A stretch of 64,000 nucleotides of DNA from Sphingomonadaceae bacterium (lineage in GTDB: Bacteria; Pseudomonadota; Alphaproteobacteria; Sphingomonadales; Sphingomonadaceae). Positions within the stretch are counted from its first letter, which is position 1; the number at the start of each line of letters is the position of its first letter. The translations under genes were made by a program, and so were the position numbers. Below are positions 4,336-26,899 of this stretch, piece by piece. Under the pieces are notes generated by a model. It had not been told where the DNA came from and made no database searches. It was given only the letters and a program-made list of their open reading frames with translations. Location of the stretch: contig JADZEQ010000002.1 in the NCBI GenBank assembly GCA_020850455.1, forward strand, positions 1 through 64,000, read 5' to 3'.

Positions 4336-4403
4336 ACGTAAATTACCAATCATGTGGATGTATTTTGCCAAAATGCGTTATATACAATGGTCAATAATAC
4401 GCA
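4336..4403. promoter_or_regulatory. Three-box operator, copy A (OYE / SDR divergent promoter)
   Basis: Box 1 ACGTA at 4336-4340, box 2 TGCGT at 4374-4378 and box 3 ACGCA at 4399-4403 are separated by 33 and 20 bases. Boxes 1 and 3 share orientation and box 2 is inverted. The same geometry recurs at five other promoters of the cluster. Here it fills the space between the divergent OYE and SDR genes, with box 1 touching the OYE start codon. Confidence 0.6.
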
Positions 4404-4419
4404 AATGAAGGATATCGCC

Positions 4420-5169
4420 ATGTATGATTTTTCCGGCAAGGTCGCGATTGTAACCGGCGCGGGGGGTGGCATTGGCCGCGCGACGGCAATGGGCTTTGCG
4501 CGTGCCGGGGCCAATGTCATCGTCTCTGACGTGCAGGATGACAAGGGGGAAGAGAGCGTCGCGCTGATTCAAGCGGCGGGCGGCAGCGCCATCTATCAAC
4601 GCTGCAACGTCGCCGATGCGGGCGAAGTGGCGGCGCTGGTCGATGCAGCGCTCCAGCATTACGGGCGGCTCGATTTTGCGCATAATAATGCCGGCATCAA
4701 CGACCCCATGTCCAACCAATGGGATGATGATATTTGGGCGCGCGACATGGCGATCAATCTGACCGGGGTGATGGCCTGTATGCGCGCGCAAATCCCCGCC
4801 ATGCTGCAAAGCGGTGGCGGCGCCATCGTCAATACCGCGTCGATCAACGGCATTGTCGGCAACCCCAGCCAGCCCGCCTATGTCGCCAGCAAGCATGGCG
4901 TCATCGGCCTGACGCGGAGCGCGGCGCTGCGCTACGCGCGTGAGGGGGTGCGCATCAACGCGGTGTGCCCCGGCGTCGTGGATACGCCAATGGTCGAAGC
5001 GGTCGTCAAAGTGCCGCAGTTTCGCGAGGCGATTGAGAAAATGACCCCGATGGGGCGGATGGCGGCACCCGAGGAAATTGCGGCCGCCGTGCTCTGGCTC
5101 TGTTCGGACGGGGCGAGTTTTGTCACCGGCCATCCGCTGGTGGTCGATGGCGGGGCAACGGCGATCTGA
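4420..5169 (+). CDS. Short-chain dehydrogenase/reductase (SDR), classical
   Basis: About 249 residues from the ATG at 4420, which has GAAGG eight bases upstream; the track start at 4354 ignores this. The protein begins MYDFSGKVAIVTGAGGGIGRA, with the Rossmann TGxxxGIG motif near residues 12-18, an NNAG motif, a catalytic Ser in NTASINGIVG, and YVASK as the Tyr-x-x-x-Lys pair. An aspartate after the second strand (VIVSDVQDD) suggests NAD rather than NADP. The C-terminus HPLVVDGGATAI is classical. As a member of the catabolic cluster it probably oxidises or reduces a ring or side-chain alcohol; the exact step is unknown. Confidence 0.88.
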   Translation: MYDFSGKVAIVTGAGGGIGRATAMGFARAGANVIVSDVQDDKGEESVALIQAAGGSAIYQRCNVADAGEVAALVDAALQHYGRLDFAHNNAGINDPMSNQWDDDIWARDMAINLTGVMACMRAQIPAMLQSGGGAIVNTASINGIVGNPSQPAYVASKHGVIGLTRSAALRYAREGVRINAVCPGVVDTPMVEAVVKVPQFREAIEKMTPMGRMAAPEEIAAAVLWLCSDGASFVTGHPLVVDGGATAI

Positions 5170-5186
5170 CCCACGACTAGACCGAC

Positions 5187-5222
5187 AAAAAAGGGGCCGG
5201 GAAATACCGGCCCCTTTTCTTT
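5187..5222. terminator. Bidirectional intrinsic terminator
   Basis: GGGGCCGG (5193-5200), a six-base loop and CCGGCCCC (5207-5214) form a perfect 8 bp stem. It is flanked by an A tract on the left and TTTTCTTT on the right, so it works for both the SDR gene ending at 5169 and the convergent receptor gene ending at 5239. Confidence 0.88.
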
Positions 5223-5238
5223 GCGTGACGAACTGGGT

Positions 5239-7791
5239 TTAGAAGCTGAAGCCGAGCGTCGCACCAAAGCTGCGCGGTTCCGCATAATAGCCGCCGGCAT
5301 AGCCCAGAGGACCAAAGTCGATGCCACGGGTAAAGTCATGCGAATTGGTCAGATTCTTGGCCCACAGCATGAAGCGCACATCACCCCCGGCGACCGGCAT
5401 ATGGTCAACCACAATTTGCGCGTCGACCGTGTCGCGATCATCCCCCAGCAACGCATCATTGAAGGGCGACGATATGGTATTGCTAAAGCTATATCCGCCA
5501 TCCTCATGCGAATAGCTGACGCGGAAGCGGACTTCGGCATCACCCCAATTAAGCGGGAAAGCAAGATTAGCGCCGATGTTGGCGGTGAAGGGTGCGACAT
5601 AGCCGATATGTGCCACCGACGCGATATCGACGATGGGGTTGGCCGGATTAACCGGCTGTCCTGCAACAAACCTTACAAAATTGACATCGACATAGCCAAT
5701 TGACCCGTCGATCGAGAAGTTGCTGTTGAAGCGAGCGTTAAAATCCGCCTCAATCCCCGTATAATTGACCTTACCGGCATTGATAATGCGCGTTTGGAAA
5801 GTGCCCGCCCCGGTCAGCACCGGCACAAGCACCGCCAAATCGTCATAGCTGTTACGATAGGCCGCGACGTTGAAAGTCAGGTGCCGGTCAAATAATTCCG
5901 TCTTTAGGCCCAGTTCGTACGATGTGACCGTTTCGCCGTTGAAGCTCGGGATCGTCGAGCTACCCGGCGCCGCCGGGTCGGAGGCATTGAAGCCCCCCGA
6001 ACGATAGCCGGTGGCCGCACGCGCATAAACGCTGATATCCGGGTTAAATTCATAGCGCGCAATCAGATTCCAGGTGAATTTGCTGAAATCGCGGCGCCCG
6101 GTTTCGGGTGTCGCAAGCGGCGCAGCACCATTTTGCAGGCGAATAATTGCCTTATTATCCCATGTATAGCGCGCACCCGCAGTCAGGCTAAGCCCGCTGT
6201 CGCGTCCGCCGGGATAAAGGGTGAATTGGCCATAAAATGCCGTCGATTCTGCCGTTGTTGTATAATCAAGCACGGCGGGCGTGACGACCAGGCGATAGCG
6301 GGCCGGGTTCGCTGCAACGAACGACGGGCCGAGCGCCCCAAAATTACCAAGGAAGATATTGTTGGTGTCGAGCACGAAACCGCTGGTTTGCGGATTATAT
6401 TCGGACCCTTTTTCAAAGAAATAGAAGCCGCCGACGATCCAGTCGAGATTGTCGGTGTCGCCCGAAATTTCAACCTCCGTGCTGAATTGATCATGGCGGC
6501 GATCGTTCGATGTGTTGAACAGATCGGCCGTTGTCGTCGGCACCGGCGATGCGGCGATAAAGGGACGGAACGCCGCCGGGATCGACGGAATGAACTGCAA
6601 CAATGCCTCCGGCATGCCATTAAACAAGGTCGCATTGCTGAATAGTGGCGAGGTGAACGAACCCATGCCGTCCAGATCGCTACCGACATAAGAGCTGTTC
6701 CAGCTGCGGTAACCCATGGTCATTTTGATCGCGAAGGGACCAAAATCATTCTGCACTTGCAGATTATGGCCCCAGATTTCATCCTCCGCATCACCATTGG
6801 TGTTGAGGCAGATGGTGTCGCGATAGACGCGTGTTGGCGCGGCAAGCGCGGCACAGGCCGGGTTGAGGAAGGTTACCCCGGCAAGGAATGGAGCGACCGG
6901 GGCCTGCTGGGTTTGCACGACCAATTGTCCATCGATCGAAATCGGCGGACGCGCGGCACCCGTTGCAACATTGGTCAATTGGAAAGCAGTCGGGTTACCA
7001 CGGCTACGCGACCAATCGAAAATATAACGAATATAGCCCGTATCGCCCAGATCGGCACGGATCGCGGCGCGGAAGCTGTCGGTGCGACGCGCGCCCGGAT
7101 CATGCGAATCGCGCGGCTCCAATATATTGTCGATATAACCGTCGCGCTGACGATGCGCGTAGGAGAAGGTCGCACGCAGAACGTCCGCCAGCTCGCCAGT
7201 ATCGACCGAAATGCGGCCATTCCATGCGTTATGATTGCCAATGCCAACTTCGCCGCGAATACCGAAATCCCGATCCGGTTCGCGCGAGACAAAGCTGATC
7301 GCGCCGCCGGTCGTATTGCGGCCAAACAAGGTGCCCTGCGGCCCGCGTAAAATTTCCACACGCGCAAGGTCGGTCACGTCCAGCCCGCTTGCCCCCGATC
7401 GGGCAATATATATGCCGTCGACATAAACGCCGTTTGCGGTGTCTAGGCCAAAGGTTTCGCTCGCCGGGGTCGAAATGCCGCGGATGGCGACCACGGCAGA
7501 ACTTAGGCTGACCGTCCCCTGTGTGATGGTGACGTTCGGCGCCAAGCCCGACAGATCGCGCGTATCATTAACCTGCATCTGTTCGATCCGTTCGGCACCA
7601 ATGGCGCTGATTGCCAAAGGAACATCCTGCAACGCCTGTTCGCGCTTTTGCGCGGTGACGATGATATCGTCATTCGCTGCGCCCTCGGACGCCTGATCCT
7701 GCGGCGCATCTTGCGCCATGGCGGGCACGGAAATGAACGCGGCCGCCGAAGCCAGAAGCATGGCGCGCGTAAAGCTGCCTGTGAAACGCAT
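5239..7791 (-). CDS. TonB-dependent outer-membrane receptor
   Basis: An 850-residue outer-membrane receptor. A signal peptide ends around SVPAMAQ (residue 27). A TonB box-like DDIIVTAQKRE follows near residues 41-51, then the plug with VAIRGI and ARVEILRGPQGTLFGRN, and a long beta barrel ending in the aromatic GATLGFSF. Sphingomonads often use such receptors to import hydrophobic aromatic or steroid-type compounds rather than siderophores. No siderophore genes are near, and it sits at the end of the catabolic gene block with its own operator upstream. Import of the cluster's substrate across the outer membrane is inferred. Confidence 0.92.
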   Translation of the reverse strand: MRFTGSFTRAMLLASAAAFISVPAMAQDAPQDQASEGAANDDIIVTAQKREQALQDVPLAISAIGAERIEQMQVNDTRDLSGLAPNVTITQGTVSLSSAVVAIRGISTPASETFGLDTANGVYVDGIYIARSGASGLDVTDLARVEILRGPQGTLFGRNTTGGAISFVSREPDRDFGIRGEVGIGNHNAWNGRISVDTGELADVLRATFSYAHRQRDGYIDNILEPRDSHDPGARRTDSFRAAIRADLGDTGYIRYIFDWSRSRGNPTAFQLTNVATGAARPPISIDGQLVVQTQQAPVAPFLAGVTFLNPACAALAAPTRVYRDTICLNTNGDAEDEIWGHNLQVQNDFGPFAIKMTMGYRSWNSSYVGSDLDGMGSFTSPLFSNATLFNGMPEALLQFIPSIPAAFRPFIAASPVPTTTADLFNTSNDRRHDQFSTEVEISGDTDNLDWIVGGFYFFEKGSEYNPQTSGFVLDTNNIFLGNFGALGPSFVAANPARYRLVVTPAVLDYTTTAESTAFYGQFTLYPGGRDSGLSLTAGARYTWDNKAIIRLQNGAAPLATPETGRRDFSKFTWNLIARYEFNPDISVYARAATGYRSGGFNASDPAAPGSSTIPSFNGETVTSYELGLKTELFDRHLTFNVAAYRNSYDDLAVLVPVLTGAGTFQTRIINAGKVNYTGIEADFNARFNSNFSIDGSIGYVDVNFVRFVAGQPVNPANPIVDIASVAHIGYVAPFTANIGANLAFPLNWGDAEVRFRVSYSHEDGGYSFSNTISSPFNDALLGDDRDTVDAQIVVDHMPVAGGDVRFMLWAKNLTNSHDFTRGIDFGPLGYAGGYYAEPRSFGATLGFSF

Positions 7792-7847
7792 CTTACTCTC
7801 CCCAATCCATTATCAGTGGCTTTTTGGCCTAGGGGGAGACTGGCATT

Positions 7848-7915
7848 ATCGTAGTAAATGTCAACGCAGATTCCGCACATGACGGTCTGATTTATCAATT
7901 ATACCGCATTTGCGT
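7848..7915. promoter_or_regulatory. Three-box operator, copy B (TonB receptor promoter)
   Basis: Read on the minus strand, box 1 ACGCA (7911-7915), box 2 TGCGG (7873-7877) and a poor box 3 ACGAT (7848-7852) keep the 33- and 20-base spacers of the other copies. Box 1 continues as ACGCAAATG, identical to box 3 of copy A. It lies 57-124 bases upstream of the receptor start. This is the weakest copy at box 3. Confidence 0.45.
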
Positions 7916-7941
7916 ATCAGAAAGGTCACAGTTTTATCGTG

Positions 7942-9021
7942 TCACGCGACTTCTTCCCATGGATGGGTCGTGGTGCCGCGCGTGATATATCGGCCATTAA
8001 CCCGCGCATGGACTTCGCCCGCCCGCGCCCGCGGATTGAAAAACTGCCGATACCAGATCCGCACCTTGTCGAACGGCCCATCGCCGCGCACCATCAACGG
8101 GTTGAGGCAGGGGCGCTTGTTGCCCCAAATCTCAAAATCCTGGGCAAAGGCATCGACGCCGGCTTCTTCATATTGGTTGGCGGTCGCCCGATCTTCCGCC
8201 GTCGGCACCGCATTGGCCACCTTTACCATCAAGCCATACCAGACCATCAGGCTACCGTCGTCGACCGGCGTATGCGCAATCAGCATTAGCGACGGGTGTT
8301 CGCCCACCATTTCGGACTGCAAAATACCGGGCCCCGTATACCATGTGTCATTGGTCATCGGCTCCCCGCCGTCGGCAGCAAGCGTCCGGTGCCCCGCCGT
8401 CAGTATCTGGCGGCAAATATGATCGTCGAACTCATTTTCGAACAACACCATGTTGAGCGAACCGTGGACGGGGACAAGATGCCCCTTGTCCGCCATATTA
8501 TCGACCACCTCTTGCGGGTGCGATTCCAGCTTACCCAGCGCGCGCATCTGCCAATTGACCCAATGCGGCGTGTCATAGGGCGCAAATTCGGGCAAGGGAT
8601 AATCCGGCTCCCCATTCTCCGCATCATACCAAACCCAAAGGCAACCCGCCCGCTCCGTCAATTTATGTGATTTCAGGCACGCCTTTTTGGGCGGCGGCGC
8701 CGGCGAATAGGGAATTTCATTGCAGCGCCCATCGGGACCGAAACGCCAGCCATGATAGGGGCAGCGAATATTATCCCCCTCCACATGCTCTTTATCCTTC
8801 ACAACATAAGATGTCGTATTCTGCGCAAGGTGGGTGCCCATATGCGGGCAATAGGCTTCAACCAGAAACGGGCGGCCCGACGCCCCGCGATATAGCACCA
8901 AATCTTCGCCGAAATAGCGCACCGCAGCCGGTGTCATCGTCGCATCTTCCGACCTGCCCACCATGAACCAGCCGCGCGGGAAGGGAAATTCCCCCAGCCG
9001 ATAGTCTGCCGTCGTCGCCAT
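7942..9021 (-). CDS. Rieske non-heme iron oxygenase, KshA-like
   Basis: A 359-residue oxygenase alpha subunit. The Rieske [2Fe-2S] ligands appear as C-P-H (in AYCPHMGTH) and C-P-Y-H (in CPYHGWRF). The catalytic mononuclear iron site is D-x2-H-x4-H in ADKGHLVPVH. The opening PFPRGWFMVGRS and the RCNEIPYSP segment resemble 3-ketosteroid 9-alpha-hydroxylase (KshA) and related single-component-type oxygenases; no beta subunit gene is adjacent, as expected for that group. It probably hydroxylates a polycyclic or aromatic ring, using a reductase encoded elsewhere, since no ferredoxin or reductase gene is in the cluster. It has a strong three-box operator upstream. Confidence 0.88.
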   Translation of the reverse strand: MATTADYRLGEFPFPRGWFMVGRSEDATMTPAAVRYFGEDLVLYRGASGRPFLVEAYCPHMGTHLAQNTTSYVVKDKEHVEGDNIRCPYHGWRFGPDGRCNEIPYSPAPPPKKACLKSHKLTERAGCLWVWYDAENGEPDYPLPEFAPYDTPHWVNWQMRALGKLESHPQEVVDNMADKGHLVPVHGSLNMVLFENEFDDHICRQILTAGHRTLAADGGEPMTNDTWYTGPGILQSEMVGEHPSLMLIAHTPVDDGSLMVWYGLMVKVANAVPTAEDRATANQYEEAGVDAFAQDFEIWGNKRPCLNPLMVRGDGPFDKVRIWYRQFFNPRARAGEVHARVNGRYITRGTTTHPWEEVA

Positions 9022-9066
9022 TGCCCTCTCCCGTCCGCAAATTCGCTCTCATGGCCATATTTGCCA

Positions 9067-9134
9067 TCGCAAATTAGCAAAAACAAGGACAAAGTTTATC
9101 ATAATGCGTAATTGAAGGCATATCAAATTACGCA
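9067..9134. promoter_or_regulatory. Three-box operator, copy C (Rieske oxygenase promoter)
   Basis: Box 1 TCGCA (9067-9071), box 2 TGCGT (9105-9109) and box 3 ACGCA (9130-9134) with 33- and 20-base spacers. Boxes 2 and 3 form the cleanest copy in the window: TGCGTAATT (9105-9113) is perfectly inverted as AATTACGCA (9126-9134). Box 1 is followed by AAATTA, as in copy A. The site lies 46-113 bases upstream of the Rieske gene and just downstream of the AsnC-type regulator stop. Confidence 0.68.
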
Positions 9135-9145
9135 CATTGGGGTTT

Positions 9146-9616
9146 TTAATGGTCAGCAGTTATCCGTACCACCCGCGCATTATATTTGACCGTGCGCACC
9201 GCGATGGAGGTTTCGACATGGTGCACGCCGTCAATCGCTAGAATCTGGTCGGATGCAATCTGATGGAGCTGATCCAGTTCGTGAAAAAGGCAGAAGGCCA
9301 AAATGGTAAAGCGCCCCATCATCAGCATCACCGCATTGCACATCGGCAATTGGCTGATTTGTTCGGCAATGGCCCGCGCCTTTACGACATCCGCCTGAAC
9401 GCCAATGATCGCGAGCCGTGATTGATTGCCCAATTCAAAACTGGTGATGGCGGTAAAGGCGATCAGATTTTCATTCTGCAGCCGCCGGATACGCCCGCGA
9501 ACCGTCCCCTCTGTCACGCCGAGGTCGGCTGCAATCTTGCGGTTGGAAACGCGGGCATCGTGCGACAATATGTCAATCAGCTGCCGGTCGAGTTCATCAA
9601 TTTGGGGGTGCATCAT
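9146..9616 (-). CDS. Lrp/AsnC-family transcriptional regulator (second of a pair)
   Basis: About 156 residues. The N-terminal winged helix-turn-helix (DELDRQLIDILSHDARVSN and KIAADLGVTEGTVRGRIRRL) is followed by a RAM-type ligand domain from residue 65 on. The ATG at 9616 overlaps the stop of the preceding AsnC gene (ATGA), so the two are translated together. Family members assemble into dimers and octamers that wrap DNA across several spaced half-sites, which fits the three-box operators found in this cluster. The effector may be a pathway intermediate rather than an amino acid. The three-box site lies 12 bases downstream of its stop. Confidence 0.88.
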   Translation of the reverse strand: MMHPQIDELDRQLIDILSHDARVSNRKIAADLGVTEGTVRGRIRRLQNENLIAFTAITSFELGNQSRLAIIGVQADVVKARAIAEQISQLPMCNAVMLMMGRFTILAFCLFHELDQLHQIASDQILAIDGVHHVETSIAVRTVKYNARVVRITADH

Positions 9617-10092
9617 GATTGATCCCACGCGTCTATTGGCGCAACGTCAAATTGATATTTGACCACATCGACGGCAATCGCCGGCATCATTGATCGGATG
9701 CCCGCCACTTTGGACAGGCGGTTGCTCATCAATTCGGTCAGATCGTCAAAACTGCGCAGCACCACCAACAGGTCGATATCATAACGGCCGGTGACCAGAT
9801 GTGCGGCAAAAACCTCCGGCAATTCGGCAAGTTCGGCGGCAACCTCGGACGCCGGGCGACCATCCACCTCTATCGCCACTTCCATCATGATATTGAAACC
9901 ATGCGCCGAAAAATCGGAAACCGCGACGACGCGTAACTTGTTCGCGTCTTCCATACGTTTAATTCGTGCCGAAACGGTGGCGGCTGTCAGCCCCAAATCG
10001 CTCGCTATTTGCTGGTTTGTCGCCCGGCCATCGGCACGCAGGGCAGCGATGATTTGCCGATCGACATTATCAATTTCAAACCTGTCGTTCAA
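9613..10092 (-). CDS. Lrp/AsnC-family transcriptional regulator (first of a pair)
   Basis: A 159-residue protein starting at a TTG at 10092, preceded by a good GGAGGG ribosome site. The helix-turn-helix is IDNVDRQIIAALRADGRATN and QQIASDLGLTAATVSARIKRM; a RAM/effector domain follows (FNIMMEVAIEVDG, HLVTGRYDIDLLVVL). Its 3' end overlaps the second AsnC gene. The two proteins are clearly diverged from each other in the effector domain, so they may sense different ligands or form hetero-oligomers. It lies between the transporter and Rieske genes in one long minus-strand array, pointing to local control of the catabolic cluster. Confidence 0.88.
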   Translation of the reverse strand: MNDRFEIDNVDRQIIAALRADGRATNQQIASDLGLTAATVSARIKRMEDANKLRVVAVSDFSAHGFNIMMEVAIEVDGRPASEVAAELAELPEVFAAHLVTGRYDIDLLVVLRSFDDLTELMSNRLSKVAGIRSMMPAIAVDVVKYQFDVAPIDAWDQS

Positions 10093-10146
10093 ATCCGCCC
10101 TCCCGCCCGATGATTCTTTATTAGCGCGCCGGCTTCCTTAGCGATA

Positions 10147-11403
10147 TTATGCTTCGGGCGCGCCCAATTTTTCTTTGTCCTGCGTCAAATGCTGCGCCGC
10201 CCGCCACAGGAGCAGTGCACCGACCAATCCGACCGGCACGACGACGGTCAATGCCATGCGCAGCCCTTCGCGCCCCTCCCCAAAGGCGTTGCTGGCAAGG
10301 CCCACCAACCACGGCCCGCCGACATAGCCCATCAGGTTGACCGACAGCATGGCAATGGCGGTGCCGGTGGCGCGCAATTTGTCGGGCAAAATATATTGGA
10401 GCCCCGCATATATGCCGACCGCCCAGCCGCCGCCGATCAAACCCGCGGGAACAGCCCAGCCCAGCGCCCAACCCAGCGTCGGCGACCATGTCGTGCCGAT
10501 CAGGCTGAGCGTCGCCAGACTTAGGGCGATGGATGACAGCTTTAATATTCGGCCATAGTCACCGCGCGCCGCCCAGTCGGCAATAAAACCAAATAATGCC
10601 GCGCCCAGCAGACCGGGGATGACAAAGGCACTGCCAAATGCCGCACCCGCCGCCGCCATTGTCATGTCATAATTGCGCGCGAACAAGGTGGCGGCCCACA
10701 GGCCAAAGCCGACCCCCGATAGGACGCCAATCGCCATGCCAATCGCCATGCCGCTATAGCTACGCAGCATGAAGAGCCGCCGCGCGAGCGGGAAGAAAGG
10801 CGGCCGGGCATCGTCCGTCGTTTCGCGATGTGGCTCGCGGATGATCGCCCATGCGGCAAGGATGATGATGAGGCCGCCCACCCCAAATGCTTCAAAGGCG
10901 GTGCGCCAATGTGCCGCCTCGGCAATTTGCGGGCCGACGCCATAGCCGAGCATCTGCCCCAAATAGGTCGCGGTCGCCATGACGGCAAAGGCGCGCCCGC
11001 GCTGTTCGGTGGTGAAATAGGCGGCAATCAGCGAATAGGCGGGGGCCTGAAAGGCCGCTTCACCAACACCGACCCCCATGCGCGCCAGCGCCAATGTCCA
11101 TGGGCCAGTCGCATAGCCGCACAATATCGTAAAAATGCTCCAGACAATGCAGCCGGTGACGATGATTTTAATCCGCGACGCCCGATCCGCATATATGGCG
11201 ATGGGGATAGCAAGCGTCGAATAAAAGACTGCAAAGGCAGGCCCCATGAGGAGACCCATGATGCCATCGCTGACCGTAAATTCGGCCTTGATCGGATCGA
11301 CCAAGGCGGCGAGCAGAAATCGGTCCGCCTGATTGAAGATGGCAATGCCCAGCAGCAGCAGCAGCACCAGCCAGCGATTGGGGAGTTTTTGGTCCATGCC
11401 CAT
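10147..11403 (-). CDS. MFS transporter, spinster-like
   Basis: A 418-residue transporter with about twelve membrane helices, from the ATG at 11403 that shares a base with the stop of the SDR gene upstream (TGATG). The N-terminal NQADRFLLAALVDPIKAEFT and the ADRASRIKI loop between helices 2 and 3 match the spinster-like MFS group, often found in sphingomonad degradation clusters for aromatic or steroid-like acids. It may carry the cluster substrate across the inner membrane after TonB-dependent uptake. Direction and substrate are inferred. Confidence 0.85.
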   Translation of the reverse strand: MGMDQKLPNRWLVLLLLLGIAIFNQADRFLLAALVDPIKAEFTVSDGIMGLLMGPAFAVFYSTLAIPIAIYADRASRIKIIVTGCIVWSIFTILCGYATGPWTLALARMGVGVGEAAFQAPAYSLIAAYFTTEQRGRAFAVMATATYLGQMLGYGVGPQIAEAAHWRTAFEAFGVGGLIIILAAWAIIREPHRETTDDARPPFFPLARRLFMLRSYSGMAIGMAIGVLSGVGFGLWAATLFARNYDMTMAAAGAAFGSAFVIPGLLGAALFGFIADWAARGDYGRILKLSSIALSLATLSLIGTTWSPTLGWALGWAVPAGLIGGGWAVGIYAGLQYILPDKLRATGTAIAMLSVNLMGYVGGPWLVGLASNAFGEGREGLRMALTVVVPVGLVGALLLWRAAQHLTQDKEKLGAPEA

Positions 11404-12161: not shown

Positions 12162-12185
12162 GACAACACCTCTATCCCTAAAAAA

Positions 12186-13688: not shown

Positions 13689-13725
13689 CCCCACGCGCGC
13701 ACGCCCATGTCAAACATGCAACCCA

Positions 13726-14874: not shown

Positions 14875-14963
14875 ATTTGGCCATCCTTTTCATCAACACC
14901 AACGGCTTGGTCATGCCGCAGGATCGCGACGTGCGGGGTTGTCTCTGCACGCCATCTGGTCAT

Positions 14964-14991
14964 TGAAAAGGGAGCAGACTTCCCGGCTCCC
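14964..14991 (-). terminator. Possible minus-strand terminator after the amidohydrolase gene
   Basis: On the minus strand GGGAGC pairs with GCTCCC across a 10-base loop and is followed by CTTTTC. The U tract is short, so termination may be partial. It would end the ligase/ligase/amidohydrolase unit before the second Rieske gene. Confidence 0.45.
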
Positions 14992-15019
14992 GCCTCCTCA
15001 CTTATGTGGGTTTTCCCCA

Positions 15020-19136: not shown

Positions 19137-19154
19137 CGCGCGCCCCCTTCCCGA

Positions 19155-20039
19155 TCAATAAACCGCTGCAGGGTTTTTGGGGTTGGGGCTGCCCAACATT
19201 TCCCGATAGCTGGGTTTATCGCGCCCGCGATCCTGCACCCCCAATTCGCGGGCAATTTCGGCGCCAATCAATGTCTGGCCCGACAGTTGATCGCGGTTGG
19301 GCGCACGGTCGATGGCGTCCAAAATATGGCCCGTAAACTCCGGATTTTCCGCAGATTCGATGAAATCCTTATATTGTTCGGGGTTGGTTTGGCTGGCGAT
19401 TTTGGACCTTTCGGTAATCAGCGGTCCCATCCAGATGGAAACAGCAATGACCCCGGTGCCACGCAAATCATGCTCCATATCATGCGCCAGCTTGTCGACC
19501 CCCGCCTTTTGCGCGCCATAGGCAGGCCCATGCATGTAACAGCTTGCCCCAAAGGAGGAACCAAAGCCGATGATCCCGCTGCCTTGCAGCACCATGATTT
19601 TCGCCGCGTGCCAGCTCGCGACGTAGGCGCTGCGCAAACCGACGTCGAGGATGCGGCAAGCATCCAGTTCCTTTTCCCAAAAGGGCTTTTTTTCAATCAA
19701 TTGGTGGTGGATGTAGGTGGCGTTGTTGACCAGCATGTCGAGCCGACCTGAATCGCGCGCAATGCGTGCGAACAAATCCGCCACCGCCGCATCATCGCTA
19801 TGGTCGCAGGCAACGCCGATGCCGCGCCCGCCTGCAGCGGTCACCGCCTCCGCCGTTTCGGCAAAAGTGCCGGGCAGCACGCTGCCGTCCCAGCCGCGCG
19901 CATCGCCAACCTGCGTGGTGCGACCGGTGACATAGACGGTATAGCCCAGTTCGCCCAAGCCCCGCGCTATCCCCGCGCCAGCCCCACGGCTCGCCCCGGT
20001 AACCAGCGCAACACGCCCTTCCGCCCGCTCTCCCGCCAT
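19155..20039 (-). CDS. Short-chain dehydrogenase, DHRS1-like
   Basis: About 294 residues from the ATG at 20039 (MAGERAEGRVALVTGASRGAG). The GASRGAGAGIA motif, a Thr-Gly-Arg-Thr after strand two (NADP-type), NNATY, and YGAQK as the catalytic Tyr-x3-Lys are visible. It has the longer C-terminal tail (to residue 294) seen in DHRS1-like SDRs. A copy of the three-box operator lies immediately upstream, so it is probably the first gene of the minus-strand unit running through the two ligases and amidohydrolase. Confidence 0.85.
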   Translation of the reverse strand: MAGERAEGRVALVTGASRGAGAGIARGLGELGYTVYVTGRTTQVGDARGWDGSVLPGTFAETAEAVTAAGGRGIGVACDHSDDAAVADLFARIARDSGRLDMLVNNATYIHHQLIEKKPFWEKELDACRILDVGLRSAYVASWHAAKIMVLQGSGIIGFGSSFGASCYMHGPAYGAQKAGVDKLAHDMEHDLRGTGVIAVSIWMGPLITERSKIASQTNPEQYKDFIESAENPEFTGHILDAIDRAPNRDQLSGQTLIGAEIARELGVQDRGRDKPSYREMLGSPNPKNPAAVY

Positions 20040-20059
20040 ATTCGAATCGCTCCTCACAA

Positions 20060-20127
20060 ACGCATTTAGATAATTATTGGTTCGATTATGCCCGATTTGC
20101 GAAAAATGAAAACATCATTTTTGCGCA
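20060..20127. promoter_or_regulatory. Three-box operator, copy D (SDR/ligase unit promoter)
   Basis: Box 1 ACGCA (20060-20064), box 2 TGCGA (20098-20102) and box 3 GCGCA (20123-20127) with the same 33- and 20-base spacers. It lies 21-88 bases upstream of the DHRS1-like gene. An extra AT-rich inverted repeat, AAAAATGA (20102-20109) and TCATTTTT (20115-20122), occupies the space between boxes 2 and 3. Confidence 0.5.
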
Positions 20128-20130
20128 CGC

Positions 20131-20631
20131 TTAGTTTTCACCGAATATGTCGGGCGCGGTGCCAATCGCCACATTGTGGAGCAGGCCATCATCGCCAATC
20201 CGCTGCATCACGCAGCTTTTGCGCCATGAACGGCTTTCGGCGATCCACCAGCGGCCATCCATTTTGACATAATGGTCGGCATATTCGACCCCCAGTTGGA
20301 GCACGGTCTGCTGCGCCAGATTGATATTGTGGAAATAGAGCGGCCACCAACCATCGGCGCTGCCATCATCGCGCCAGCTCAAAATGCCGGTGCCGCCGTG
20401 GTGGATGTCAAAAATGCCGGGCTGGCAGCCAAATTGTTCGTAAATGGCGACGAAATCCTCCCGATTGTCGAAATCGGGAAAGCCTTCGAAAAGGATGCGC
20501 GCATCGGGGCGAAAGCAATCGCGCATCGCCTGCGGGTCCTTGGCGTCGGCGGCGCGCAAATAACGCATTTTGAGGTCGCGGATGGCGCGGTCATCCTCCA
20601 GCCGGGTGATACGTTGTTCCAAATCCATCAT
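20131..20631 (-). CDS. SnoaL-like / NTF2-fold protein
   Basis: About 166 residues from the ATG pair at 20631/20628, preceded by GGGGAAAG. The helical start LEQRITRLEDDRAIRDLKMRYLRA and the later DDG...GWW and DGRWWIAESRS strands define the nuclear-transport-factor-2/SnoaL-like cone fold. Proteins of this type act as isomerases, dehydratases or ring-hydroxylating small subunits. In a steroid-like cluster a delta-5-3-ketosteroid-isomerase-type role is attractive, but the key catalytic residues cannot be assigned by eye. It is coupled to the upstream SDR with an 11-base gap. Confidence 0.75.
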   Translation of the reverse strand: MMDLEQRITRLEDDRAIRDLKMRYLRAADAKDPQAMRDCFRPDARILFEGFPDFDNREDFVAIYEQFGCQPGIFDIHHGGTGILSWRDDGSADGWWPLYFHNINLAQQTVLQLGVEYADHYVKMDGRWWIAESRSWRKSCVMQRIGDDGLLHNVAIGTAPDIFGEN

Positions 20632-20641
20632 CTTTCCCCAA

Positions 20642-21406
20642 TCAGTCAAAATTGGCCTGCCCGCCGTCGAGCGGGATGGTCGCGCCGGTCAGATAGGCAA
20701 GACCGGGTGCGCAGAGCGCGACCAGCGCCGCGCCAATATCCCCCTCACAATCGCCGACCCGACCCAAGGGGATGACGCGCAGAAACTCCGCCGCCTCCTC
20801 CGGGTTGCGTTCCATCCAGCCGCGCATCCCCTCTGACAAGGCATGCGGCGCGATCGAAAGCACCCTTATGCCCGACGCGCCCCATTCGGCGGCGGCAGCG
20901 CGGGTCAGGCTGCGCATCGCCTGTTTTACGGCGGCATAAGCACCATAGCCCGTCATATCCCAGCGGATGGTGGCAGAGGAGGTGAGGTTAAAGACCACGC
21001 CGCCACCGCGCGCCGCCATGACCGGCGCGGTCAATTTCATCAGGCGAAACGCCGCCATCGGCCCCGACATAAAACCGGCGAGGAAGGCTTCATCGCTGAC
21101 ATCGGCCAATTTGCCATTGGGCACCTGCTGCGCATTATTGACCAATATGTCGATGCCACCAAAACGCGTGCAGGCGGCGGCAACCAGTGTGTCGAGCGAG
21201 GCTGCATCCCCCACATCGCCCGCAATGACCAACGTATCACCGCCGAACGCCGCGATTTCGCCAGCCACCGCGTCAAGTTTCGATTGGGTGCGCCCAAAAA
21301 GGATGATGCTTGCCCCCGCCCGTGCCATGGCGAGCGCGATGCCGCGCCCCACCCCTTGTCCCGCGCCGGTAATCAGCGCAATCTTGCCCGCCAATGATTT
21401 TTCCAC
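20642..21406 (-). CDS. Short-chain dehydrogenase/reductase (SDR)
   Basis: About 254 residues if translation starts at the GTG at 21406 (VEKSLAGKIALITGAG); the track start at 21454 would place coding sequence over operator box 2. The protein has TGAGQGVG, a Gly-Arg-Thr after strand two (NADP-type), NNAQ, and YAAVK as Tyr-x3-Lys with a Ser in LTSSATIRW. It ends IPLDGGQANFD. It is divergent from the second OYE-like gene across operator copy E and is followed by the SnoaL-like gene. Confidence 0.86.
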   Translation of the reverse strand: MEKSLAGKIALITGAGQGVGRGIALAMARAGASIILFGRTQSKLDAVAGEIAAFGGDTLVIAGDVGDAASLDTLVAAACTRFGGIDILVNNAQQVPNGKLADVSDEAFLAGFMSGPMAAFRLMKLTAPVMAARGGGVVFNLTSSATIRWDMTGYGAYAAVKQAMRSLTRAAAAEWGASGIRVLSIAPHALSEGMRGWMERNPEEAAEFLRVIPLGRVGDCEGDIGAALVALCAPGLAYLTGATIPLDGGQANFD

Positions 21407-21423
21407 TCGCCAAATCCCCGATA

Positions 21424-21491
21424 TTCGTAAGATAATGGCTGTTGATTTACGCAAATTAGTGTCATACTGCCAGCAAAATTGATAAATCCGT
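21424..21491. promoter_or_regulatory. Three-box operator, copy E (SDR / OYE-2 divergent promoter)
   Basis: Read on the minus strand: box 1 ACGGA (21487-21491), box 2 TGCGT (21449-21453), box 3 ACGAA (21424-21428), again with 33- and 20-base spacers. It fills the divergent region between the SDR start at 21406 and the OYE-2 start at 21537. Confidence 0.52.
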
Positions 21492-21536
21492 CAAAATTGA
21501 TAGGTTTTGGCGTGCAGAGATTGTGGGGAGATTAAG

Positions 21537-22766
21537 GTGGCGGCCATAGTGGATGCCTTTTCGCCGTTGCAACTCGGCCCGATCACGCTGCGCAACCGCT
21601 TTATCAAGAGCGCGACCAATGAGGGGATGGCCAAGGGCGGCATCGTCTCCAAGGGACTGGCGCTTTTCCACGAACGCATTGCGGCGGGCGGCGCGGCGAT
21701 GTCCACCGTTGCTTATTGCGCGACATCGCGCGACGGACGCACCTTTGTCGACCAAGCGGTGCTCGATGCCGACAGCCTGGCTGATTTTCGGGTACTGACC
21801 GACGGTGTCCACCGCCATGGCGCGGCGGCATCGGCGCAGATTACGCATGCGGGCAGCTTTACCTTCCTCGACAAGGCAACGCTCAAGGCCAGTCGTCCGC
21901 TATCGTCGAGCGGCGGGTTCAACAAGCTTGGCGTGGTATCGGGCCGTTTCTGGAAGCAGCGGATGACCAAGGCCGATATGACGGCGATGGCGGATGAATT
22001 TGTTGCCGCCGCACGCTGCGCCCGCGAAGCCGGGTTCGATGCGGTCGAAATCCATATGGGGCATGGCTATTTGCTCAGCCAATTTGTCACCCCGCTCTAT
22101 AATAAACGGCGCGATAATTATGGCGGCGACATTGAGCGGCGGATGAACTTTCCGATCGAGGTCTTGTCGCGGGTGCTCGACGCGGTCGGGCGCGATATGG
22201 CGGTGTTGGTCAAATATTCGATGACCGACGGGCCAAAGGGCAATCAGATTGACGAGGGCATGGCGGTCGCGCGGCGACTGGCGGCGGCGGGCGCGCATAT
22301 GGCGGTGCTGTCCAATGGGCTGAACGTCGAGTCCATTTCCGCCATGTTTGGTTCCAACCTGCCCAAAAGCAGCGCCAAGTCGCCCAACCCGATCATCGGT
22401 CTGGGCATGTGGGTGCAGTCGCTGAGCGAGCCCAAGGACGTCCGTTTCCACGAAAATTACCTCCGCGATTTGGCGTTGCAGGTGCGCGGCGCGACCGACA
22501 TGCCGCTCGCCTATATTGGGGGGGTGCAGTCGCGCCACGGGGTCGAACAGGCCATGCGCGATGGGTTTGATGCGGTCGCGCTCGGCCGGGCGCTGGTTTA
22601 TGATGCCAATTTCGTCCGCGATTTACAGGCGGGCAGCATCGAAAAATCGTTGTGCAACGCCTGCAATCGCTGCGTCACGATGATGTATTACCCGCAAGGG
22701 ACAAGCTGCGTCCTGACCCGCAATGCGATGGACGCCGCACTCAACACGCAAAGGGCAAGCGCATGA
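21537..22766 (+). CDS. NADH:flavin oxidoreductase with 4Fe-4S motif (dienoyl-CoA-reductase type)
   Basis: About 409 residues, from the GTG at 21537 with GGGGAG six bases upstream; the track start is thirty bases earlier. The N-terminus FSPLQLGPITLRNRFIKSAT and EIHMGHGYLLSQF (the H-x-x-H substrate pair) are OYE-like. The C-terminal C-x2-C-x2-C-x11-C motif (CNACNRC...GTSC) is the iron-sulfur site seen in 2,4-dienoyl-CoA reductase-like members. The second flavoprotein domain of DCR is absent, so this is a single-barrel form. It is translationally coupled to an SDR and a KstD-like gene, so reduction of a C=C bond on a ring or CoA intermediate is likely. Confidence 0.87.
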   Translation: MAAIVDAFSPLQLGPITLRNRFIKSATNEGMAKGGIVSKGLALFHERIAAGGAAMSTVAYCATSRDGRTFVDQAVLDADSLADFRVLTDGVHRHGAAASAQITHAGSFTFLDKATLKASRPLSSSGGFNKLGVVSGRFWKQRMTKADMTAMADEFVAAARCAREAGFDAVEIHMGHGYLLSQFVTPLYNKRRDNYGGDIERRMNFPIEVLSRVLDAVGRDMAVLVKYSMTDGPKGNQIDEGMAVARRLAAAGAHMAVLSNGLNVESISAMFGSNLPKSSAKSPNPIIGLGMWVQSLSEPKDVRFHENYLRDLALQVRGATDMPLAYIGGVQSRHGVEQAMRDGFDAVALGRALVYDANFVRDLQAGSIEKSLCNACNRCVTMMYYPQGTSCVLTRNAMDAALNTQRASA

Positions 22767-23536
22767 AATGGGATTTTGACGGGCAGGTTGCGATCATCAC
22801 CGGCGGCAGCGACGGCATCGGCCGCGCCACCGCCGAATTGATCGCCGCGCATGGCGCGCATGTCGTCATTTGCGCGCGCGGGGCGGAGAAATTGGCAGCG
22901 ACCGAGGCGGCAATCCGCGACGCGGGCGGGTCGGTGGAAACCCACATCCTCAACGTCGCCGACGCCGACGCCTTTGCCGCGCTGGTTGCCGATGTGGCGG
23001 CGCGCCATGGGCGGCTCGACATGATGGTCAATAATGCGATGTCGGTCCATTATGCGCCGATCGAAAAATTGAAGCTGAACCATTGGCAAAAGGATTTTGC
23101 GGTCAATGCCGAAGCGGTGTTTACCGGCACCAAGGCGGCGATGCTGGTAATGAAACCGGCGGGGCGCGGTTCCATCGTCAACATCGCATCGACCACCGCC
23201 ATCCGTGCCGCCCCCTATATGTCGAGCTATTCGGCGTCCAAGGCGGCGTTGATTCAATTCAGCGCGGTGGCGGCGATGGAATGTGCGCCCTTTGGCGTCC
23301 GGGTCAATGCGGTGGTACCGGGACAGGTGCAAACCAGCGGGAATGAGGATTTTGCCGCCAAGGCCCCCGAAGTGGCGGCGCGCACGACCGAAGCCATACC
23401 GATGCGGCGCGGCGGTGAACCGGCGGAACTCGCCGCATCCATCGCCTTTTTGCTGTCGGATGCTGCGAGCTATATCACCGGCATCACGCTGCCGGTTGAT
23501 GGCGGGAAGGCCGCCCAATTATATATGCCGGGGTGA
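22763..23536 (+). CDS. Short-chain dehydrogenase/reductase (SDR)
   Basis: About 257 residues starting at the ATG at 22763, which overlaps the previous stop (ATGA); the track start at 22652 is a shadow extension. The protein has TGGSDGIGRA, ICARG after strand two (NADP-type Arg), NNAM, a Ser in NIASTTAIRA and YSASK. It ends LPVDGGKAAQLY. It lies between the OYE-2 and KstD-like genes in a three-gene plus-strand unit and likely acts on a hydroxyl or keto group of the same substrate. Confidence 0.88.
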   Translation: MKWDFDGQVAIITGGSDGIGRATAELIAAHGAHVVICARGAEKLAATEAAIRDAGGSVETHILNVADADAFAALVADVAARHGRLDMMVNNAMSVHYAPIEKLKLNHWQKDFAVNAEAVFTGTKAAMLVMKPAGRGSIVNIASTTAIRAAPYMSSYSASKAALIQFSAVAAMECAPFGVRVNAVVPGQVQTSGNEDFAAKAPEVAARTTEAIPMRRGGEPAELAASIAFLLSDAASYITGITLPVDGGKAAQLYMPG

Positions 23537-25224
23537 ACGCCATGACGCAGGCTTGGGATAAAGAGGTTGACCTGCTGGTCGTCGGCTCTGGTGCGGGCGG
23601 GATGCTTGCCGCGCTGTATGCTGCCGATGCCGGTGCGGACGCGCTGATCATCGAAAAGGAAAGCCTGTGGGGCGGCACATCGGCAACATCGGGCGCAGGC
23701 ATTTGGATCCCGGCGAGCGACCAAGCGCGGGAGGCTGGCTTTGCCGACAAGGTCGATGATGCCTTTACCTATGTGCGCGGACTTTCGGCGGATAATGTCC
23801 CCGACGCGCAAATCCGCGCCTATGTCGAAAATGCGCATCTGATGCTGCGCTGGCTCGGCGAAAAAACGCCGATTAGCTACTGCGCCTTTCCCTACCCCGA
23901 TTATCATGCCGAAAATCCCGGCGGCAGCCCGACCGGGTACCGGACCCACATGCCGCTGCCGCTCGACGGGCGGATGCTCGGCCGCGATGTCGAAACCTTG
24001 CGCTTTGCATCCCCTGCGGCCTGCCTGTTCGGCTATTTGAACTGGCATTTCGACGAAACCTATATCCTGCTGTTTCGCGCCAAGGGCTGGCAATGGCATT
24101 TGGCCAAAAGCTGGCTGCGTTACTGGTTCGACCTGCCCTTTCGCTTGAAATCGCGCAAGGACAGGCGGCTGACATTGGGCAATGCGCTCGCCGGGGGGTT
24201 GCGCATGGCGCTCAACGCCAAAAATGTGCCGCTATGGCTCGACAGCCCAATGGAAAGCCTGATCCGGGAGGATGGACGGGTTACCGGCGCGGTGGTTCGC
24301 CATGGCCGCGAAATGCTGCGCATCAAGGCGCGCAAGGGCGTGGTGCTGGCGGCGGGCGGCTTTGACAAAAATGCCGCGATGCGCGCGCAATATGCGCCGC
24401 TTTATCCCAAGGCGCTTTATTCGGGCGGCACCAGCGGCAATATGGGGGATGCGATTAATGCGGGCGCGGAGCAAGGCGCGGCGCTGCGCAACATGCAATC
24501 GGCATGGGCGGCGCCCGTATTTTATGTGCCGGGCGAAGATCGCGGGCGACTGTGCACCATCGAACGTGCGCTGCCCGGCTGCCTCATCGTCCATCAGGGC
24601 GGTGCGCGCTATCTGAACGAAGCCGCATCCTACCACATCGTCGGGCAGCAAATGGCACGGCGGGCACAGGAAGATGGTGATGCCAGTCCCAGCTGGTTCA
24701 TATTTGACCATATATATCGCCACAAATATCCGGTGGGACCTCTGCTCCCCCTCCTCCCCGATGCGTTGCAGTCCAAGGGGGTGCGCCAGATTTTGAAAAA
24801 GGGTCGGACGATTGGTGAATTGGCCGCCGCCATTGGGGTGGACGCCGCCACGCTGGAGGCAACGATTGCGCGCTATAATGACCATGCGGCGCGCGGCGAG
24901 GACCCTGATTTTGCGCGCGGGGCGGCCGCTTATGACAAAATGTATGGTGACCCCAGCGTCACCCCCAATCCCTGTCTGCGCCCGCTGAGCAAGGGGCCGT
25001 TTTACGCCATGCCCATCTATCCCGGCGATATTGGCACCAATGGCGGGCTGGTCACCAACGGCGATGCACAAGTGTTGCGCGAAGATGGCAGCGTTATCGA
25101 GGGTCTATATGCCATCGGCAATTGTGCAGCCTCTGCCATGGGCGAAAGCTACCCTGGCGCGGGGGTGACCATCGGCCCGGCGCTGACCTTTGGCTATTTG
25201 GCAGCGCGCCACGCCACCAGCTGA
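23533..25224 (+). CDS. FAD-dependent 3-ketosteroid delta-1-dehydrogenase-like protein
   Basis: About 560 residues. The FAD Rossmann motif VVGSGAGGM (residues 16-24) is followed by the WGGTSATSGAGIWIP block. The C-terminal DIGTNGGLVTNGDAQVLREDG and LYAIGNCAASAMG...YPGAGVTIGPALTFGY match the KstD/fumarate-reductase-like group; KstD enzymes use conserved tyrosines and the FYAMPIYPGDIGTNGG loop to desaturate ring A of 3-ketosteroids. The start is either the GTG at 23533 or the ATG at 23542; the former overlaps the SDR stop. Assignment to the family is firm, but delta-1 versus another dehydrogenation position is not decided by eye. Confidence 0.82.
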   Translation: MNAMTQAWDKEVDLLVVGSGAGGMLAALYAADAGADALIIEKESLWGGTSATSGAGIWIPASDQAREAGFADKVDDAFTYVRGLSADNVPDAQIRAYVENAHLMLRWLGEKTPISYCAFPYPDYHAENPGGSPTGYRTHMPLPLDGRMLGRDVETLRFASPAACLFGYLNWHFDETYILLFRAKGWQWHLAKSWLRYWFDLPFRLKSRKDRRLTLGNALAGGLRMALNAKNVPLWLDSPMESLIREDGRVTGAVVRHGREMLRIKARKGVVLAAGGFDKNAAMRAQYAPLYPKALYSGGTSGNMGDAINAGAEQGAALRNMQSAWAAPVFYVPGEDRGRLCTIERALPGCLIVHQGGARYLNEAASYHIVGQQMARRAQEDGDASPSWFIFDHIYRHKYPVGPLLPLLPDALQSKGVRQILKKGRTIGELAAAIGVDAATLEATIARYNDHAARGEDPDFARGAAAYDKMYGDPSVTPNPCLRPLSKGPFYAMPIYPGDIGTNGGLVTNGDAQVLREDGSVIEGLYAIGNCAASAMGESYPGAGVTIGPALTFGYLAARHATS

Positions 25225-25257
25225 ACAGCGCCGAGCGGTAATTGGCGGGGCGGGCGT

Positions 25258-26163
25258 TTAGTTGGGCGTGGCGCTGGTATATTTGGCGATCAGCGCCGCG
25301 CGCATCGCCGGTGTGACGCCAAGCGCCTGTTCGAGATAGGCATCAATGCTGCCATAACGTTCGATAATCGCGTCGAGACTGGCGTTCAAATAGCTGGCAT
25401 CGACGCCGGTCAGCGCGGCGAGCACTTCGGGCGGAATATTGTGCAGCATCGCATTGGCGGCATTATTGGTTGGCGTCGGGCGATAATATCGGTTGGATAA
25501 GAGATAGTCAGCCAGCACCGTTTCGCGCGGCACATGGAGCGCGAGGAGGAAGAGCGCCGAACCCAGCCCGGTGCGGTCCTTGCCCGCTGAACAATTCATC
25601 ACCACCGCGCCGTCGGTCACCGCTAAATCGGCGAACAGGCTGCGGTAATTTTCGACCATGTTAAAGGGCAGTTGCCGGTACATTTGCGCGGTAACAGCAC
25701 GCGCATGTTCGGGCGTGATCGGCCCGCCGCCCGCACCGAGTGCGGCCAGAAATTCGCGCATGTCGAGCGTATAGTCGCGCGCGAAAATATGCGGCGCATC
25801 ATCGCCCGTCCAGGCAAATGGTTCGGCGGTGCGTTCGCTGGTCGAACGATAATCATGCACCGACCTAATCCCCAAACGGCGCAAGGTCGCGATATCGTGC
25901 GGGGTGAGGCGCGCCATCGACCCCGACCGGAAAACCCGCCCCCACAGAACGTAGCGTCCGTCACTCGTCGCATAGCCGCCTAGGTCACGGAAATTGACCC
26001 CCGCGTCGAGCGCAACCAACCGTTCATGCGCCGCAGCGGGCGCGCTTGCGACGGGCGCAGCCGTGGGTGCAGCGGGCGCGGTTGCGACGCTGGTTGGCGC
26101 ACAAGCGGCGAGCGCCAAGGCGCTAAGGCTGGTGAGGCAGATGAGGTAGGGGCGATCAACCAT
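25258..26163 (-). CDS. Protein tyrosine phosphatase-like lipoprotein
   Basis: A 301-residue protein. A lipobox LALAAC near residue 20 predicts a lipid-anchored envelope protein, followed by an Ala/Pro/Thr-rich linker. The domain starting FRDLGGYATSDGR and the active-site loop CSAGKDRTG (Cys-x5-Arg) belong to the Y_phosphatase3/Siw14-like dual-specificity group. It is convergent with the KstD-like gene (33-base gap) and sits between catabolic genes. Substrates could be phosphoproteins or phosphoinositide-like or sugar phosphates; being outside the cytoplasm argues for small phosphorylated molecules. Its relevance to the pathway is unclear. Confidence 0.82.
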   Translation of the reverse strand: MVDRPYLICLTSLSALALAACAPTSVATAPAAPTAAPVASAPAAAHERLVALDAGVNFRDLGGYATSDGRYVLWGRVFRSGSMARLTPHDIATLRRLGIRSVHDYRSTSERTAEPFAWTGDDAPHIFARDYTLDMREFLAALGAGGGPITPEHARAVTAQMYRQLPFNMVENYRSLFADLAVTDGAVVMNCSAGKDRTGLGSALFLLALHVPRETVLADYLLSNRYYRPTPTNNAANAMLHNIPPEVLAALTGVDASYLNASLDAIIERYGSIDAYLEQALGVTPAMRAALIAKYTSATPN

Positions 26164-26174
26164 GGTGTGTTCCT

Positions 26175-26819
26175 TTAATCCGCGCGAACTTTGACGCGCG
26201 GGGCGGCGCTGCCCCGCCGCATGAAATCCAGAAAACCATCGATTGGCGCGGGTTCGGGGACTGGCGACCCATCATCACCGTCGCGCGCCCAAAATTCGGC
26301 AAAGCTGGGGAAGAGCTTGTGAAAATTGCCCTCCACCCATTCGCTGCCCGGCCAGCGCATCTTATTCTCCCCCATCGGCGGGGCATTAAGGTCGGTCGCA
26401 TACCAATAAAGCGGCAGACGGCGGTCAAAATACCAGCGGCCATCGACCCGCCGATAATTATCGGCATAGAGCATCTGCATAATCACCCATTCGCCGCCGC
26501 GGGCATGCCCGGCAACCGGTGTTTCATGCTCATTTTTGGAATAGACGATACCCTGCGCATGGTCGGCATCGATAAATTCGATAATATGCCCGCCGATATG
26601 GTGTGACGTCCCGGTAAAGGGCGAACGCAATGTCTGGTCCATATAGGCGCGCAAGGCCGCCCGACCGCTCGCCCCCTTGCCAACGCGAACATCGGCGGGG
26701 AATAATTGCACCATCGCGTTCATGTCCCGCATGTCGAGCGCAAGCGCATATTTGGCGGGCAATTGACGGATGGCGTCGAGCGATTCAAGCCGGTCGATGC
26801 GCGATTCAAGGTCGGTCAT
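26175..26819 (-). CDS. SnoaL-like / NTF2-fold protein, second copy
   Basis: About 214 residues from the ATG at 26819, with AAGGAT upstream. LESRIDRLESLDAIRQLPAKYALALDMRD is the family's N-terminal helix pattern, and HIIEFIDADHAQGIVYSKNEH and YRRVDGRWYFDRRLPLYW are the sheet. It has a longer C-terminal tail than the first SnoaL-like protein. It is divergent from an SDR gene across operator copy F and probably co-transcribed with the phosphatase gene (12-base gap). A role as a ring isomerase, dehydratase or binding protein is possible. Confidence 0.77.
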   Translation of the reverse strand: MTDLESRIDRLESLDAIRQLPAKYALALDMRDMNAMVQLFPADVRVGKGASGRAALRAYMDQTLRSPFTGTSHHIGGHIIEFIDADHAQGIVYSKNEHETPVAGHARGGEWVIMQMLYADNYRRVDGRWYFDRRLPLYWYATDLNAPPMGENKMRWPGSEWVEGNFHKLFPSFAEFWARDGDDGSPVPEPAPIDGFLDFMRRGSAAPRVKVRAD

Positions 26820-26856
26820 GCAATATCCTTCGCGCCGATTATTCCCCATAACCATA

Positions 26857-26899
26857 ACGCAATCAATGGATTTATTCCTTGCCAACCATCGAAATGCGT
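26857..26899. promoter_or_regulatory. Operator copy F (boxes 1 and 2 only)
   Basis: ACGCA (26857-26861) and TGCGT (26895-26899) are exact and are 33 bases apart, like boxes 1 and 2 of the other copies. The expected box 3 position (26920-26924) reads TGCGA, which does not match in the right orientation. It lies in the divergent region between the SnoaL-like and SDR genes. Confidence 0.5.

Follow-up and report, generated by a model that had tools for sequence, protein, structure and literature searches.

In actinobacteria, the KstR regulons use one class of operator to coordinate scattered steroid genes, including those with Hsa and Ipd functions. A review that names these regulons describes regulation in the bile-acid-degrading Proteobacteria as largely unknown (PMC8399759). 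The estrogen cluster of Caenibius tardaugens is under the local control of EdcR, a TetR protein that represses from a position over the core promoter, recognizes the compact palindrome TnnCnnTACnAnTnGTAnnGnnA, and is restricted to the edc cluster (PMC8700777). A paper of 2026 points out two adjacent Lrp/AsnC genes, NCHOL11_RS15865 and RS15860, within the Sphingobium sp. Chol11 bile-salt cluster without giving an operator, targets or geometry (PMC12882949). The Lrp/AsnC proteins Ah-BarR and Sa-BarR act at divergent promoters, their own gene included, where an octamer wraps a series of spaced sites; each site is a 15-bp semi-palindrome of one orientation class, and Ah-BarR also has mixed spacings (PMC10201364). 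The subject of this report is a set of short CGCA/TGCG boxes at fixed distances, located at promoters of a predicted steroid-catabolic cluster that encodes two Lrp/AsnC regulators, AsnC1 and AsnC2. The cluster lies in a 64,000-nucleotide stretch (the window) of a Sphingomonadaceae bacterium (assembly GCA_020850455.1, contig JADZEQ010000002.1, positions 1 to 64,000).

The window resembles Chol11 in carrying tandem Lrp/AsnC genes within a sphingomonad steroid-degradation cluster, and orthology of the two pairs is assumed here. With EdcR it shares the local control of sphingomonad steroid operons; however, the consensus differs from the EdcR operator form and no TetR gene was found among the scanned cluster genes. 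The KstR proteins are likewise of the TetR type with short palindromes, and as far as tested no KstR homologue is involved in the window system. Unlike the BarR sites, the boxes are asymmetric pentamers with A+T flanks that alternate in orientation at 38 and 25 bp, and the regulators are two different tandem proteins. A literature search, which covered few subscription papers, found no published description of this operator. Conservation of the boxes among relatives, together with the genes that they precede, indicates that sphingomonads have kept a genuine DNA switch at their steroid-degradation promoters through evolution.

Detection and conservation of the boxes

The preliminary description proposed six promoter copies with the order ACGCA (box 1), 33 bases (N33), TGCGT (box 2), 20 bases (N20), ACGCA (box 3), and its boxes are present in all six stretches (Table 1). 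It placed the deviations in the outer boxes; these do vary, but box 2 varies too (TGCGG in operator B, TGCGA in operator D). It also suggested a genome scan with the gapped pattern, which in its bare form is no commoner than its control. The genome of the organism is 2.35 Mb, assembled from stretches, and the scan covers all but ~4 kb of it. The exact three-box pattern has no match anywhere in this genome, and with up to two mismatches there are 8 matches genome-wide against 9 for the reversed control, four of the eight falling inside the cluster. The bare three-box pattern is a weak detector.

A 42-bp weight matrix of the box 2-N20-box 3 dyad was trained on sequences from other genomes only, taken from orthologous clusters in which the Rieske oxygenase is 75-94% identical. 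The seven best matches of this matrix in the genome are C5:49331, C2:9105, C2:4374, C2:21424, C10:126571, C2:7848 and C2:20098; five of them are operators A to E, all within the 22.6 kb of the cluster sites (binomial P = 1.7e-9), and the other two (C5:49331 and C10:126571) are unlinked to the cluster. Moving the half-sites to 24 other spacings gives 0-4 cluster matches, against 6 at the native spacing. Operators A to E are confirmed as real, well beyond chance. That short CGCA boxes in A+T-rich intergenic DNA were simply lined up by eye would fit the equal frequency of the bare mismatch pattern in the control, but is extremely improbable given the independent matrix, the fixed spacing, the conservation and the blind recovery of an Hsa operon at C5:49331; it is refuted for A to E, though not for site F.

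Dyads are kept by relatives at the promoters of operators A, B, C, D and E, as expected of functional sites in the preliminary description. The operator A dyad is kept at the orthologous promoter in 8 relatives, and operator C in every close relative. The dyad of operator B, which has TTGACA within its N20, is kept with that hexamer inside in L069, L072, L074, L168, L170, L173 and L174. Three boxes at N20 and N33 precede SDR2 in L071 and L172, and by reading of the sequence also in L073 (operator D), and L070 has three boxes before SDR3 (operator E). A dyad precedes SDR1 in relatives where this gene starts a unit, and there is none in the window, where SDR1 is operon-internal.

Of the six copies originally proposed, A to E are backed by matrix and conservation; site F is weak and unproven as a genuine operator. 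It is one of three exact ACGCA-N33-TGCGT matches genome-wide, but fits box 1-box 2 alone and has no N20 dyad of its own; a full dyad is present at the SDR5 promoter in the relatives L179, L194, L195 and L196.

Table 1. Coordinates of the operator sites, candidate regulators and principal target genes in the window
Feature	Coordinates	Strand	Boxes or domain matches	Matrix score	Position or role
Operator A	4336..4403	+	box 1 4336-4340 ACGTA; box 2 4374-4378 TGCGT; box 3 4399-4403 ACGCA	34.8 (3rd in genome)	divergent promoter between OYE-like gene (minus) and SDR (plus), genes by Pfam
Operator B	7848..7915	-	box 1 7911-7915; box 2 7873-7877; box 3 7848-7852	18.4	TonB receptor promoter
Operator C	9067..9134	+	box 1 9067-9071 TCGCA; box 2 9105-9109 TGCGT; box 3 9130-9134 ACGCA	35.6	KshA-like Rieske oxygenase promoter
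Operator D	20060..20127	+	box 1 20060-20064 ACGCA; box 2 20098-20102 TGCGA; box 3 20123-20127 GCGCA	17.8	promoter of apparent operon SDR2 to AsnC1 (operon gaps)
Operator E	21424..21491	-	box 1 21487-21491; box 2 21449-21453; box 3 21424-21428	30.8	divergent promoter, SDR3 (minus) and OYE-family gene (plus)
Site F	26857..26899	+	box 1 26857-26861; box 2 26895-26899		before SnoaL-like Sno2 (minus) and SDR5 (plus)
AsnC1, Lrp/AsnC regulator	9146..9628	-	PF13404 (HTH_AsnC-type) 5.7e-14; PF01037 (AsnC_trans_reg) 3.7e-9		candidate operator reader
AsnC2, Lrp/AsnC regulator	9613..10092	-	PF13404 8.6e-15; PF01037 1.3e-13		tandem partner of AsnC1
TonB-dependent receptor	5239..7791	-	Pfam TonB barrel and plug		target of operator B
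KshA-like Rieske oxygenase	7942..9021	-	Pfam KshA_C 1e-58		target of operator C
3-ketosteroid-delta1-dehydrogenase-like FAD enzyme	23533..25224	+	NCBIfam PRK12844 5.8e-157, under curated cut-off		downstream of operator E

Geometry of the dyad and the third box

In the close relatives there are 21 copies of TGCGT-N20-ACGCA and no more than two at any alternative spacing as far as 80, and the context in orthologous clusters is mostly A+T-rich (WTGCGTAA...TTACGCAW). The core of the operator is the inverted pair WTGCGTAA-N16-TTACGCAW, with its pentamers 20 bp apart, a core that the preliminary description had missed.

The third box (TGCGT at N33, facing outward) is found as 37 arms on 78 non-redundant dyads against ~3 at other distances (z 9.2), near-identical promoters having been removed from these 78 and orthologous promoters still being partly dependent on each other. 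Without the window sites there are 33 arms against 2.5 at other distances, and because the matrix excludes the third-box position the result is independent of how the sites were selected. The third box is never found on both sides of a dyad, and a fourth, symmetric box, considered as a further element, is absent on all 78 sites. The boxes at each promoter are in helical register, with N20 and N33 fixed and the outer boxes 63 bp apart, the six-turn geometry first noted in the window. Unbiased counting of inverted repeats at two TomTYG loci was also tried and was too noisy. The three-box geometry is real but optional, with alternating orientation and the third box on about half of the sites; in the genome of the organism itself, C10:126571 has all three boxes with the third exactly at N33, and C5:49331 has the dyad without it.

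These numbers bear on a simpler description in which the N20 dyad alone is the operator and the third box an occasional second site outside any three-box complex. About half of the 78 dyads, C5:49331 included, would suit that description, but it is rather unlikely in view of the fixed distance, fixed orientation and one-sidedness of the third box; the register held at N33 argues that the third box is not an independent extra site.

Target genes and the steroid regulon

KshA-like Rieske oxygenases are encoded in the window cluster together with acyl-CoA ligases, SnoaL-like proteins, a TonB receptor and a 3-ketosteroid-delta1-dehydrogenase-like enzyme, of which L070 has a copy with 76% identity. 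A minus-strand open reading frame at 4378-5133 was rejected as a gene, being antisense to a genuine plus-strand SDR gene.

The best-scoring dyad of the whole genome, C5:49331, is in a divergent promoter on a contig other than that of the window. It is flanked on one side by HsaA-HsaD-HsaE-HsaG-HsaF-type genes and on the other by SDR-HsaC-CoA transferase-ECH-NMO, within a complete-looking Hsa/Ipd-type locus for steroid ring degradation (C5:41329-56167; L114). By gene content this is a predicted 9,10-seco steroid ring degradation operon, with a match to the HsaA model of 1.4e-105 that is under the curated cut-off of that model. The second unlinked site, C10:126571-126638 (L112:6571-6638), has all three boxes and lies upstream of the gene for another TonB receptor, adjoining an MFS transporter gene. 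In other species, strict dyads stand at the HsaC/HsaA divergent promoter (S. herbicidovorans, Novosphingobium P6W and, twice, TomTYG72) and also at SnoaL/SDR5, SDR1, TonB and Rieske promoters. The sites are thereby placed at the 9,10-seco ring-degradation genes HsaA, C, D, E, F and G and at IpdAB.

A dedicated regulon had been proposed from the window, and both the conservation at orthologous promoters and the blind recovery of two unlinked loci, one of them a steroid ring C/D operon, strongly support this; its steroid identity and its extension to other contigs had escaped that first reading. From the identity of its genes the regulon is assigned to steroid catabolism, and the substrate could be a bile salt, a saponin aglycone or another steroid, a choice that could not be fixed.

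Other observations concern neighbouring genes. A strict dyad located between an Hsa-locus-like SDR gene and an acyl-CoA ligase gene in two genomes of one genus (L199:1502 and L200:1502) is a possible further regulon member. In the window, a tyrosine-phosphatase-family gene (25258-26163; PF13350) lies in the steroid cluster and has no counterpart in the orthologous clusters fetched. The ACS1-AH-RO2-amidase block (window 15883-15020 to 14874) recurs at 60-82% identity on plasmids of Sphingobium TomTYG and N. aromaticivorans, and could be a side-chain module in its own right.

Candidate regulators and promoter architecture

Both AsnC1 and AsnC2 have an N-terminal AsnC-type helix-turn-helix and a C-terminal ligand-binding and oligomerization (RAM) domain, and align over their full length with Lrp-type structures such as 7fby and 9w4v. 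The tandem arrangement is present in all close relatives, and the AsnC1 recognition helix VTEGTVRGR is conserved. The apparent operon headed by operator D finishes with these two genes, a position from which they would be autoregulated. Of 201 genomes of the family, 10 have the strict dyad, 15 have AsnC1 and 8 have both (P 4.7e-9); the two dyad genomes without an AsnC1 call also have a tandem pair, such that the pair is present in 10 of 10 dyad genomes. Twelve sphingomonad plasmids with tandem pairs contain 24 dyads against 0 control matches. The ES2-1 and THN1 plasmids have 4 and 7 dyads, respectively, far from the AsnC pair on the same plasmid.

Same-family tandem pairs are also found on small conjugative Sphingobium plasmids, beside maintenance and transfer genes and with no operator there (L185, L187 and L190). 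In the cultivable N. aromaticivorans a tandem pair is encoded by SARO_RS18945/18940. Plasmid pNL2 of this species has a second, divergent Lrp/AsnC tandem pair (L180:21804-22843; ~35% identical); the first and second pairs there belong to one steroid-like cluster, with ~6 kb between them. The idea that dyads lie near every AsnC pair is contradicted by ES2-1 and THN1, where they are distant, and by three small conjugative plasmids, which have none.

The strongest argument for the AsnC proteins as readers is that recognition helix and box sequence covary. The TEGT(V/I)R helix and TGCGT boxes are retained together down to 43% protein identity. Sphingobium TomTYG72, a strain from a study of tomatine degraders (PMC10653915), has two tandem pairs: the first, with a VTEGTIR helix, is next to an Hsa operon whose dyad reads TGCGT, and the second, with VNEGTVR and a partner helix IASTVSTR, adjoins TKCGG dyads at the same N20. 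A search of 12 genomes or records gave three exact TKCGG dyads, all of them on the two TomTYG plasmids and next to the second pair. Together with co-occurrence, this supports the Lrp/AsnC link first offered as a candidate, and the operator is most likely read by the AsnC1/AsnC2 pair.

Alternatively, a real and steroid-specific operator could be read by a protein from another locus, for instance a TetR- or AraC-type regulator, with the AsnC pair as a co-regulated passenger. EdcR, a TetR protein, controls the Caenibius estrogen genes (PMC8700777), TetR and AraC genes are present in other bile-salt clusters (PMC12882949), and the dyad tracks its target genes as well as it tracks AsnC. Nonetheless, no DNA-binding regulator besides AsnC1 and AsnC2 was found among the scanned cluster genes, and no other regulator among the few scanned neighbours of the C5:49331 site; these negatives, the tandem pairs in all dyad genomes and the helix-box covariation make an outside reader distinctly improbable.

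The sequence of the sites also suggests how a bound protein would act. The N20 spacer is A+T-rich (0.73 versus 0.56). An exact TTGACA falls within it in 9 of the 78 sites, compared with an average of 0.5 in the flanks, and does so chiefly at TonB promoters; the Rieske promoter has its best sigma-70-like match placed with the -35 inside N20. Shuffled sequences yield at least as many promoter-like matches in this region. The most probable sign is repression, because binding would cover the -35. The AsnC proteins might instead be activators that hold RNA polymerase at weak promoters when steroid-bound, given that regulators of the Lrp/AsnC family are capable of both modes (PMC10201364) and that most of the promoters are missing a good -10 match. 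Such activation is unlikely given the -35 hexamers of the TonB and Rieske promoters inside N20, which favour occlusion, and a third-box side that differs among promoters relative to the gene.

The best explanation, and a probable one, is that the boxes are a steroid-regulon operator bound and wrapped by the tandem AsnC1/AsnC2 proteins, with repression until a steroid signal arrives. The two proteins, acting jointly or in a mixed oligomer, would bind with one dimer per box and wrap the promoter; occupancy over the -35 region would repress the uptake and degradation genes as well as the operon of the regulators, and a steroid or its CoA thioester would release or reshape the complex. Octamer-forming Lrp/AsnC proteins are reported to have 15-bp sites and 15-17 bp spacers, or 30-32 bp centre to centre (PMC10201364). 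If the dimer centre lies a distance x beyond the box, on the side to which the box points, equal spacing requires 38 - 2x = 25 + 2x, which gives x = 3.25 and a pitch of 31.5 bp, which is arithmetic rather than proof; at that value of x the pitch would fall within the reported range.

Several points weigh against this explanation. Tandem pairs occur on the three small conjugative plasmids with no dyad on those plasmids, and the helix-box covariation comes from one clade. The dyad follows the gene for the Rieske oxygenase, itself a target, no less closely than it follows AsnC, and for this reason co-occurrence alone cannot name the reader. Lone asymmetric boxes are also unlike the palindromic 15-bp sites of characterized Lrp proteins. 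Treating each box as a full palindromic dimer site was rejected, since in the alignment TGCGT stands as an asymmetric element between A+T flanks, and no partner half-site is conserved. The operator thus appears to work like an Lrp operator yet to lie outside the classical semi-palindrome form.

Lone asymmetric boxes would be accounted for if AsnC1 and AsnC2 acted only as a mixed complex, a tentative extension that is somewhat less likely than not to hold in full. One subunit would read TGCGT and the other the A+T-rich partner, a mixed octamer would wrap the three alternating boxes (38 and 25 bp), the first recognition-helix residues (T to N in AsnC1, TAAT to IAST in AsnC2) would set the box sequence, and parallel pairs within a single genome would run separate steroid sub-regulons.

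The analysis yields a defined operator together with its target promoters and a candidate pair of regulators, and the question of steroid control becomes directly testable. The operator is usable for finding unknown steroid genes and for building steroid sensors, and TomTYG72 with its two pairs, like the third box that sits on one side only, provides a natural test of how Lrp-family proteins acquire new DNA specificity.

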